A stretch of DNA of 64,000 bases from an uncultured Porphyromonadaceae bacterium (GTDB lineage Bacteria; Bacteroidota; Bacteroidia; Bacteroidales; Muribaculaceae), in contig CAMTMX010000001.1 in assembly GCA_947073495.1 (NCBI GenBank), forward strand, positions 38,812-102,811, read 5' to 3'. The notes under the pieces were generated by a model. That model did not search any database. It was given only the letters and a program-made list of their open reading frames with translations, and was not told the origin of the DNA. Position numbers and translations under genes: made by a program. Below, one piece after another: positions 31,817-64,000 of the stretch; position 1 is the first letter of the stretch, and the number at the start of each line of letters is the position of its first letter.

Positions 31817-31862
31817 CAGCGTTCGCTTTGCGAATGCTGAGGGTTATAGGGTTAAAAGGTTA
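31817..31862 (+). repeat. Dispersed palindrome-headed element, copy D (left end with altered stem)
   Basis: CAGCGTTCGC-TTT-GCGAATGCTG followed by AGGGTTATAGGGTTAAAAGGTTA. Confidence 0.6.
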
Positions 31863-31975
31863 TAGTTTAGGGTGGAGGGTTTAGGGTTTAGAGTTTAGAG
31901 TTGAGGTTTAGAGTATATGGTTTATGGTTTAAGAATTATGTGTCGCTTCAAATGGTTCTTAAACCATAAACCATA
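31863..31975. repeat. GTTTAGGG/GTTTAGAG-rich degenerate repeat ending in a 19-bp perfect inverted repeat
   Basis: TATGGTTTATGGTTTAAGA (31916-31934) and TCTTAAACCATAAACCATA (31957-31975), 22-nt loop. Confidence 0.75.
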
Positions 31976-32134
31976 AACTATATACCATAAACTTATCCGA
32001 TAAACTCTCAAAACACCACTCAAAAATTAGATAGTAATCGGAATTTCGGGCATTTATTGTTGTCAATCAACTTTTTCTATTATTTTTTTGCCAAAATAAT
32101 TTTTTATTTAAGAAATTTATAATAGATTTGCAAA

Positions 32135-34344: not shown

Positions 34345-34487
34345 GTAATCTGAAAATCAGGAAATCTGATGATCTGTAAATTTGAAAATCTGATGATCTG
34401 AAGTTATGACTGATGTAACCGTCACAAAGTGACGATCACCGGAAATTCAAAATCAAACAACAAAAATCAACAAAAACTATCAAAAAT

Positions 34488-60435: not shown

Positions 60436-61941
60436 ATGAAAATATTTACCTTGCGGAGTCTGAGGGTAACCCTCGCCGTGATTTTCTTTCTTTCCATAAC
60501 ATTATTGTTCTTGGATTTTACCGGCACAGTGCATAAGTGGCTCGGATGGATGGCAAAAATCCAGTTTTTGCCGGCTTTACTCGCCTTGAATGTAGGCGTT
60601 GTAGTGGGACTGGTTGTGCTCACTTTGCTTTTCGGACGTATCTATTGTTCGGTGATATGTCCGTTGGGAGTGATGCAAGACGGTTTTGCATGGCTTGGCA
60701 AGAAAAGTAAAAAGAACCGATATTCTTATTCTCCGGCAAAAAATATCCTTCGTTGGATAATGCTCGGACTGATGGGTGTGGCTATCGTTTTGGGGATAGG
60801 TGCGTTTGTCGCCTTGTTCGCTCCTTACAGCGCTTACGGCAGGATCGCTCAGTCATTTCTCTCGCCCATTTGGCTATGGGGCAACAATCTTTTGGCGTAT
60901 TTGGCTGAACGGCAAGAAAGTTATGCCTTCTACACAGTAGATGTGTGGATGCGCGGTGCTGTCACAATGATTGTGGCGGGAGTGACGCTTGTGGCTCTTG
61001 CAATCCTTGCCTGGCGAAACGGAAGGACTTATTGCAACACCATCTGTCCGGTAGGGACAGTGCTTGGTTTCTTCTCGAAATATTCTTTATTCCGACCTGT
61101 GATCGATACATCGAAATGTAACGGTTGCGGGCTTTGCGCGCGCAATTGCAAGGCGGCGTGTATCGACAGCAAGACACACACTATCGACTATTCACGCTGT
61201 GTGGATTGTATGGATTGTATCGGTAAATGCCATAAACAAGCCATCACTTATTCCTTAAGGACAAAACAGCCCAAGACTTCAGAGAATATATCAGGGAAAG
61301 AGGCTGCCGCAGTCGATAGCGGCCGTCGTCAATTCTTTGCAATTACCGCACTTGCAGGTGCTGCCGCCGCAATGAAGGCGCAGGATAAGGTGGACGGCGG
61401 ATTGGCAGAAATCATCGATAAGAAAGCACCTGTCCGCAAGACTCCTATTGTTCCACCCGGAGCTCAAGGCATTCGCAATCTTACGTCTCATTGCACTGCT
61501 TGCCAGCTTTGTGTGTCGGCATGTCCCAACGGGGTGTTGCGTCCCTCGACGGATCTTGAAAGATTGATGCAACCTGAAAGTTCATATGAAAGAGGCTATT
61601 GTCGTCCGGAATGTACCAGATGTTCCGACGTTTGTCCCGCAGGGGCTATAAAACCGATTACGGTAGCGGATAAATCATCCATTCAGATTGGTCATGCAGT
61701 CTGGGTGAAACAAAACTGTGTACCTTTGACAGATGGGGTTGAATGTGGCAACTGTGCCCGTCATTGCCCTGTAGGTGCGATACAGATGATCCTCTCTGAT
61801 CCGGCAAATGAGGAATCGGTGAAGATTCCGGTTGTCAACACCGAGCGGTGCATCGGATGCGGTGCATGCGAGAATTTATGTCCGGCACGTCCTTTCAGCG
61901 CCATTTATGTGGAAGGTCATGAAAATCATAGAACAATCTAA
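60436..61941 (+). CDS. Membrane polyferredoxin (NapH/CcoG-like) fused to a Tat-like 4Fe-4S domain
   Basis: Four-TM NapH-like region with GRIYCSVICPLGVMQD and GRTYCNTICPVGTVLG; CNGCGLCARNCKAAC; internal RRQFFAITALAGAAAAM; further CxxCxxCxxxCP clusters. Confidence 0.85.
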   Translation: MKIFTLRSLRVTLAVIFFLSITLLFLDFTGTVHKWLGWMAKIQFLPALLALNVGVVVGLVVLTLLFGRIYCSVICPLGVMQDGFAWLGKKSKKNRYSYSPAKNILRWIMLGLMGVAIVLGIGAFVALFAPYSAYGRIAQSFLSPIWLWGNNLLAYLAERQESYAFYTVDVWMRGAVTMIVAGVTLVALAILAWRNGRTYCNTICPVGTVLGFFSKYSLFRPVIDTSKCNGCGLCARNCKAACIDSKTHTIDYSRCVDCMDCIGKCHKQAITYSLRTKQPKTSENISGKEAAAVDSGRRQFFAITALAGAAAAMKAQDKVDGGLAEIIDKKAPVRKTPIVPPGAQGIRNLTSHCTACQLCVSACPNGVLRPSTDLERLMQPESSYERGYCRPECTRCSDVCPAGAIKPITVADKSSIQIGHAVWVKQNCVPLTDGVECGNCARHCPVGAIQMILSDPANEESVKIPVVNTERCIGCGACENLCPARPFSAIYVEGHENHRTI

Positions 61942-61951
61942 ACTGCGACCT

Positions 61952-63388
61952 ATGAAAAAGAATATATTCAACAATAAGGATATCAATAGAAGGGAATTCC
62001 TAAAACGCCTCGGAATGGGGACGGCTGCTGTCTCGGCAGTTTCTCTCACCGGTTGTGGCGCCAAGCAGACCTCATCTTCCGGGAGCAGCAAGGAACTGGG
62101 AGAAATCCCTACCGATCAGATGACATACCGTACAACTCCTACCACGGGAGACAAGGTATCTATCCTCGGATACGGATGTATGCGTTGGCCAACCAAGGAA
62201 AATCCCGATGGGAGTGGAAAGGATATAATTGATCAGGAAACTGTCAATGATCTTGTGGATTACGCCATAGAGCATGGGGTGAACTATTTCGACACGGCTC
62301 CTGTGTATTGTCAGGGCATGTCGGAGACATGTACCGGAATAGCTTTAAAACGGCATCCAAGAGATTCATATTTCATCGCTACCAAGATGTCGAATTTCGG
62401 GGTTGCGGGTAAAGGGCTTTCACCGAAGGAATCTTTCGACACTTCGGTTGAAATGTATAAAAAATCGTTGGCTAACCTCCAGACCGATTATATTGATTAT
62501 TATTTGCTTCATGCAGTCGGTGGAGGCAATGGCATGGAGACCCTCAACGAAAGATTTTTTGACAACGGGCTTATTGATTTCCTGTTGAAGGAAAGGGAGG
62601 CTGGAAGAATCAGGAATCTTGGATTCTCATATCATGGCGACATTGCTGTGTTTGATTATCTGCTCTCGCGCCATGACGAGTTTAAATGGGATTTTGTGCA
62701 GATCCAGATGAATTATCTTGACTGGAAACATGCCAAGGAGATAAACACGAGCAATACCGACGCGGAATATCTTTATGGAGAGCTTGTAAAGCGTAATATA
62801 CCTGCCGTAATCATGGAGCCTCTTCTGGGAGGGCGCCTTTCAAATGTGCCTGACCATATTGTGGCTCGGCTAAAGGAGAAAGATCCTGAACGCAGTGTGG
62901 CTTCATGGGCGTTCCGTTTTGCCGGGACATATCCTGACGTGCTGACAGTGCTTAGCGGAATGACATATAAGGAGCATCTTGAGGACAACCTCAGATCTTA
63001 CTGTCCGCTTGATCCTCTTGATGATGAAGAGTTGAGGTATCTGCAAGACACGGCGGGTCTGATTGTGCAATATCCCACCATCCCTTGCAACGACTGCAAA
63101 TATTGCATGCCATGTCCTTACGGTATTGACATCCCTGCAATATTTGTTCATTATAACAAGTGTGTGAATCAGGGGAATGTGCCCGAAAACAGTCAGGCGG
63201 AAAACTATAGGGAAGCGCGTCAGTCATTCCTTGTGGGGTATGACCGAAGTGTGCCCAAACTCCGACAGGCTAACCATTGTATAGGATGTAGACAATGTGT
63301 CCCCCATTGTCCTCAGAACATTAAGATTCCTCGTGAGCTTCACAGGATTGATAACTTTGTGGAAGAACTCAAACAAGGGAAAGTGTGA
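61952..63388 (+). CDS. Tat-exported aldo/keto reductase with C-terminal 4Fe-4S domain
   Basis: NRREFLKRLGMGTAAVSAVSLTGCG (Tat signal plus lipobox); AKR core; CNDCKYCMPCPYGIDIP and CIGCRQCVPHCPQNIKIP. Confidence 0.9.
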   Translation: MKKNIFNNKDINRREFLKRLGMGTAAVSAVSLTGCGAKQTSSSGSSKELGEIPTDQMTYRTTPTTGDKVSILGYGCMRWPTKENPDGSGKDIIDQETVNDLVDYAIEHGVNYFDTAPVYCQGMSETCTGIALKRHPRDSYFIATKMSNFGVAGKGLSPKESFDTSVEMYKKSLANLQTDYIDYYLLHAVGGGNGMETLNERFFDNGLIDFLLKEREAGRIRNLGFSYHGDIAVFDYLLSRHDEFKWDFVQIQMNYLDWKHAKEINTSNTDAEYLYGELVKRNIPAVIMEPLLGGRLSNVPDHIVARLKEKDPERSVASWAFRFAGTYPDVLTVLSGMTYKEHLEDNLRSYCPLDPLDDEELRYLQDTAGLIVQYPTIPCNDCKYCMPCPYGIDIPAIFVHYNKCVNQGNVPENSQAENYREARQSFLVGYDRSVPKLRQANHCIGCRQCVPHCPQNIKIPRELHRIDNFVEELKQGKV

Positions 63389-63804
63389 TGGAGGAGCTGA
63401 TAGATGTCCTTGTCTCCGGCAATCATTCTTTAGTGGTTGACAATGGGGAAATCCGTACGTTCGACGGCAGAGGTGTCTCTGATTTGTACCGGATGCTTGT
63501 GCAGGATCCCGGGTTTCTTGACAGGGCACGCATCGCTGACAAGGTTGTTGGAAAAGGTGCGGCAGCCTTGATGATCTTAGGGGGTGTCAATGAGGTTTAT
63601 GCCGGAGTGATAAGTGATCCGGCTTTTGCGCTCTTTGAAAAATCCGAAGTCAAGGTGTCATTCGGGAAACGGGTGGAACATATAATCAACCGTAAAGGTG
63701 ACGATATTTGCCCGGTAGAAAAGCTCTGTGCGGGTTGCACCACTCCCGAAGAATGCCTTCCGCTGATAAAGGGTTTTGTTCAATGCATAATTCATAATGC
63801 ATAA
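63385..63804 (+). CDS. DUF1893-like protein
   Basis: HSLVVDNGEIRTFDGRGVSDLYRML...ADKVVGKGAAALMILGGVNEVYAGVIS; overlaps the AKR stop by 4 nt. Confidence 0.75.
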   Translation: MMEELIDVLVSGNHSLVVDNGEIRTFDGRGVSDLYRMLVQDPGFLDRARIADKVVGKGAAALMILGGVNEVYAGVISDPAFALFEKSEVKVSFGKRVEHIINRKGDDICPVEKLCAGCTTPEECLPLIKGFVQCIIHNA

Positions 63805-63840
63805 TGCATAATCTTGCAACTGAACGACATCTTGGCTTTG

Positions 63841-64000
63841 CTCAAACTGAGTTCAAACTGAATTCAAACTGGGTTCAAACTGAGTTCAAACGGGTTCAAA
63901 CTGAGTTCAAACTGAATTCAAACGGGTTCAAACTGAGTTCAAACGGGTTCAAACTGAGTTCAAACTGAATTCAAACGGGTTCAAACTGAGTTCAAACGGG
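63841..64000. repeat. Tandem array of 15 units of TTCAAACTGAG / TTCAAACTGAA / TTCAAACGGG, runs off the right edge
   Basis: Ten 11-bp and five 10-bp units tile 160 bp exactly; last 106 bp are two identical 53-bp super-units. Confidence 0.95.

Follow-up and report, generated by a model that had tools for sequence, protein, structure and literature searches.

A probable expanded intercistronic minisatellite at a contig end, downstream of a DUF1893 gene

The window analysed here is a stretch of 64,000 nt (G000:C1:38812-102811), and its last 160 bp form a tandem array of 10- and 11-bp units. We consider this array most probably (probability roughly 0.8) to be an expanded intercistronic minisatellite of the VNTR type, a known kind of element, located at a contig end. 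Its units run head to tail and have a length within ∼10-100 bp, the array is non-coding and lies between genes in the two congeners in which the same locus is complete (G059 and G078), and the length differences observed comprise whole units. The window and contig C1 (102,811 bp long) share their last base, 64000 in window numbering; the array is thus truncated by the contig itself and not by the window alone. The features of the region are as follows.

60436..61941, + strand: gene for a NapH-like polyferredoxin (ORF and family search)
61832..63388, + strand: gene for an aldo/keto reductase with a C-terminal ferredoxin domain and a twin-arginine start (ORF; family search on 62003-63385)
63385..63804, + strand: DUF1893 (TM1506 family) gene (ORF; Pfam PF08973, E 8.3e-46)
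63782..63812, + strand: AATGCAT heptamer element, dispersed in this genome; provides the DUF1893 stop codon
63813..63838, + strand: 26-bp stretch, identical in this genome, G059 and G078; links the AATGCAT element to the array
63841..64000, + strand: tandem array of 15 units of 10 or 11 bp each, TTCAAAC followed by TGAG, TGAA, TGGG or GGG (tiling; truncated by the contig end)
63871..63947, + strand: first copy of a 77-mer with an exact second copy at 63924-64000 (offset 53); assembly loop point
63924..64000, + strand: exact repeat of the 77-mer, reaching the contig's final base

The array and the genes upstream

The first-pass annotation described fifteen units starting with TTCAAAC that tile 160 bp exactly. 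The tandem array is real in the sequence given and the tiling is exact, with ten 11-bp and five 10-bp units covering 63841-64000 without remainder. The common start holds for 14 of the 15 units; unit 1 (CTCAAACTGAG) begins with CTCAAAC. Six units have the tail TGAG, five GGG, three TGAA and one TGGG. Two identical 53-mers occupy 63895-63947 and 63948-64000, the exact run at offset 53 that reaches base 64000 is 77 bp long, and TRF reports 63842-64000 with a score of 309 and a period of 53. The units are imperfect dyads (GTT-CA-AAC); read from the sequence, AACTGAGTT pairs with itself at 8 of 9 positions, and a dyad arm is missing in 3 of the 14 TTCAAAC units. Stop codons are present in all six frames of the array (2 to 5 per frame), which excludes a coding repeat and upholds the earlier description of the array as non-coding.

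The genes upstream all have the same direction as one another. The aldo/keto reductase has its likely ATG start at 61952, and its translation contains NRREFLKRLG, which we take to be a twin-arginine motif. This gene (61952-63388) is codirectional with genes that in relatives continue into tatA, and its product is, judged from its sequence, a likely Tat substrate encoded beside translocase genes. The AATGCAT element has 33 more matches in this genome. It forms the C-terminus and the stop of the DUF1893 gene, and other congeners have different ends. By their appearance, the genes and repeats suggest a host from the Bacteroidales.

Other repeats occur in the window. At 31848-32025, facing heptamer arrays (GTTTAGG and TAAACCA) form a 77-nt inverted repeat that is 71% complementary and flanked by two + strand ORFs. 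An array of 8-bp AATCTGAA units at 34347-34402 shows a higher-order repeat of 24 bp.

The locus in related genomes

A DUF1893 protein was detected in 16 of the 111 genomes of the genus. We read 14 of the 17 DUF1893 matches (L189-L202), and the frame was missed by the motif in three of them, leaving 11 readable loci. The spacer is present in three of these (this genome, G059 and G078) and absent in eight, and it therefore seems to have been gained in one small species group. Among the loci that lack it, the next gene lies at -1 to 12 bp from the stop in six; in another the gap is AT-rich and 53 bp long, and in the last no next ORF was found within 400 bp. In G059 and G078 the order is the DUF1893 gene, AATGCAT heptamers, the conserved 26-mer, degenerate units, ECF-S and TatA. 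The ECF-transporter S component and TatA were assigned by Pfam, run on the G059 proteins, and the ORF after TatA in G078, read by eye, appears to encode TatC. The complete spacer is 125 bp long in G059 and 115 bp in G078. The arrays of these two genomes comprise about five to seven degenerate units (TTCAAAC, TTAAAAC, TTAAAG, TTCAAAT), mostly 9 to 11 bp apart and irregularly spaced (9, 10, 11, 20). The array in the window, with at least 15 units, is larger.

Identity between G059 and G078 is about 75% up to the 3' end of DUF1893 and about 99.5% beyond it. The first ∼1.7 kb of the near-identical block contains nine substitutions and a single indel, which is exactly one 10-bp array unit. Such a single-unit indel is VNTR behaviour. 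A comparison of array length between strains had been proposed in the first-pass annotation; with one genome per species, it yielded a positive result in the form of this one unit between G059 and G078. The jump in identity lies at about 3245 in L232 (G059) and about 3015 in L233 (G078), and identity decays again about 3 kb further on. The jump would represent either a recombination breakpoint beside the spacer, with a block carrying the ECF-S and Tat genes, or a chimeric contig.

A search of the genome for further arrays had also been proposed. In this genome, a search pattern of three TTCAAAC words separated by 3-4 bases matched 12 times on the + strand and never on the - strand; written backwards as a control, it matched neither here nor in any of the 111 genus genomes. 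No second such array was found in this genome, and the array in the window is thus the only one found there. A dispersed mobile repeat is excluded, with no second copy of either the array or the 26-mer in the genome. Searched as DNA, the spacer matched 4 of the 111 genus genomes at E<=0.001 and 3 of 397 evenly drawn genomes of the family; the match in G109, obtained in both searches, is 38 bp long (E 8e-4) and lies at a different place.

Arrays of TTCAAAC occur elsewhere, in at least 119 stretches from other bacteria and 44 viral stretches, and in 8 of 393 genomes of the order (this one included); the backwards control matched 1 of 393. Among the matches listed, their tails are mostly CAT, AAC, AAT and similar. 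We treat these arrays as separate from the one in the window rather than as its kin: among the matches listed the tails differ, and the flank was seen in G059 only. Searches of the PMC library listed nothing recognised as the array in the window or as its locus. The arrays of other bacteria (L020-L138, many from Bacteroidota) form 102 distinct clusters, after removal from the 119 loci listed of duplicates and of those with less than 200 bp of flank. Among the matches listed, at least two GTTTGA words lie within 200 bp upstream in 15 of the 102 clusters and downstream in none, the mirrored arrays having a single order, GTTTGA then TCAAAC; 8 of the 15 mirrored clusters sit between two minus-strand ORFs.

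RNA folding, helical period and the contig end

An RNA hairpin between the cistrons could tune stability, processing or read-through from DUF1893 to ECF-S/tatA/tatC. The region of the conserved 26-mer would supply its left arm and the end of the array its right arm, and gain or loss of units would alter the stem. On the sense strand, the full spacers of G059 and G078 are predicted to share one long stem, with z scores of -3.43 and -3.05 (-0.17 and 0.34 on the antisense strand). For the array in the window with its short left flank, the z scores relative to shuffles are -2.5 (sense) and -4.8 (antisense). However, 16-26% of random arrays with the same layout fold equally well. For this genome the antisense strand gives the stronger fold, and the right arm would lie beyond the contig end. 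G059 and G078 are too similar in this block to reveal compensatory changes, and their complete spacers show no paired differences to judge by. The spacer has no match in Rfam and no U-tract terminator, and no intrinsic terminator (a stem followed by a T run) was found in L191 at 1700-2300. We consider a functional hairpin unlikely, and the predicted stem of the G059 and G078 spacers is the one structural hint left standing.

Two observations speak against a plain minisatellite. Conservation of the 26-bp stretch exceeds that of the coding DNA beside it in G078, and the full spacers, as sense RNA, have a predicted fold stronger than that of shuffles (z -3.4 and -3.05); each could reflect selection in the spacer. 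Recent recombination can also explain the conservation of the 26 bp. The minisatellite reading draws on three genomes, which is few. A regulatory effect of the array on the downstream genes, by spacing or through an RNA stem, is possible but would be secondary. A bolder version, which we regard as a long shot, is a hypermutable switch in which gain or loss of units would alter the RNA stem and so set the ratio of upstream products (a Tat-exported redox protein and DUF1893) to downstream ones (ECF-S, TatA and TatC), generating variation from cell to cell.

The period itself invites a reading as phased curved DNA or as an array for cooperative protein binding, for example by a nucleoid protein or as an operator cluster. 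The mean period of 10.67 bp is close to the helical repeat, as the first-pass annotation noted, and the A-runs are spaced by 10 or 11, which places the A-tracts in helical phase; the dyad symmetry of the units is also consistent with binding. We estimated curvature with three dinucleotide models, using the model twist. The ratio of end-to-end to contour length of the array was 0.18, 0.75 and 0.88, in each model below all 400 mononucleotide shuffles, and all 1000 dinucleotide shuffles were less curved than the array in one model. Among 1000 arrays of random sequence with the same 10/11 layout, however, 11%, 30% and 17% were equally curved. In dinucleotide models, bending results from any motif that recurs in phase, so the modelled curvature is a by-product of the period and an A-tract signal is not needed. 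The curvature predicted earlier is thus seen in the models, far above shuffles, but it does not extend beyond what the period gives, a level reached by 10-30% of random arrays of this layout. The A-tracts are no longer than three A, the spacing is irregular in the relatives, and the loss of a dyad arm in some units also argues against a binding array. No promoter of the Bacteroidota type was found on the sense strand in or next to the array; the reverse strand has one weak match in G059 and three in G078. Other short arrays in the window have units of 7, 8, 16, 24, 25 and 28 bp, so a helical period is no rule here. For periodic protein binding, which had been predicted as well, no evidence was found, and we judge a function in curvature or binding highly improbable.

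The two identical 53-bp blocks at the end of the array had been taken as a sign of recent block expansion. We sampled 76 contig ends of the assembly, of which 10 read N and were dropped, leaving 66 usable ends. Eight of these showed an exact 77-bp recurrence, either within the end itself or in a different sampled end. Another four have recurrences of 74, 29, 23 and 23 bp; for the other 54, no recurrence of at least 20 bp was found among the sampled ends. The eight include two self-closing tandem arrays: the one in the window, with offset 53, and another at the start of contig C3. The latter (L236, bases 1-140) is an array of the 8-bp unit GGGTTAAA with the same 77-bp run. A final word length of 77 is usual for SPAdes. 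The contig appears to go once round a 53-bp loop and then stop, and the identity of the last blocks is forced by this 77-mer stop. It therefore does not argue for recent expansion; expansion itself finds support in the shorter arrays that G059 and G078 carry. According to PMC6868369, repeats that exceed the word length are not properly resolved by a de Bruijn assembler. Neither the ECF-S protein nor 1.5 kb of G059 downstream DNA retrieved a right-hand contig in this genome; the smallest contig available is 2,746 bp, so a short right-hand contig may be missing.

That the whole array is an assembly artefact absent from the cell, made by a graph loop at the contig end where it lies, is extremely improbable, as homologous arrays lie inside contigs of G059 and G078, and the 53-bp loop implies 53-periodic sequence in the sample, because graph construction would require reads with 53-periodic words. 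Any artefact lies in the number of copies and in the stop rather than in the presence of an array. A tandem repeat at a contig end may carry the word length of the assembler in its final bases, and neither identity of the final blocks nor copy number at such an end should be read as biology.

Proposed origin and comparison with known systems

Under the minisatellite reading, a short, degenerate run of 10/11-bp units would have arisen together with the AATGCAT element and the 26-bp stretch, in the spacer between DUF1893 and ECF-S/tatA/tatC, in one species group. In this genome, replication slippage or unequal exchange would have lengthened the run to 15 or more units, adding one or several at a time (53 bp corresponds to five). 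The quasi-palindromic units may aid slippage through single-strand hairpins. The assembler would then have been unable to resolve the array, which would account for the contig stop, and the array presumably still leads into ECF-S/tatA/tatC.

Several known systems resemble parts of this picture. Elements of the REP type are intercistronic stem-loops, and the array shares with them a predicted hairpin in an operon spacer. Unlike them, it is not dispersed as a unit, and its fold is no better than that of random arrays with the same layout. In PMC4679880, TAACTGA direct repeats are described from Beggiatoaceae, Cyanobacteria and some Bacteroidetes. As presented there, they are likewise short, direct and intergenic, often upstream of a gene start, and they have the letters AACTGA in common with our array, but their period is 7 as against 10/11, and the word TAACTGA is absent from the unit list of the window array. 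Tandem repeats in M. tuberculosis promoters show phase variation by copy number, as reported in PMC12817950. According to that paper, they lie in promoters, with a measured effect for lpdA, whereas no promoter was found in the spacer described here; the likeness is in copy-number change of 54-56 bp and other cis repeats near operon genes. If unit number altered the expression of the Tat genes, the present locus would be a case of phase variation.

Bacterial intergenic minisatellites, or VNTR loci, serve in MLVA typing. The unit and locus of the window array have no match to a named locus of this kind, but the likeness extends to head-to-tail units of about ten bases, an intergenic position, unit-sized differences among relatives and degenerate copies. 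As with such loci, the array could be used as a length marker for strains of the species group.
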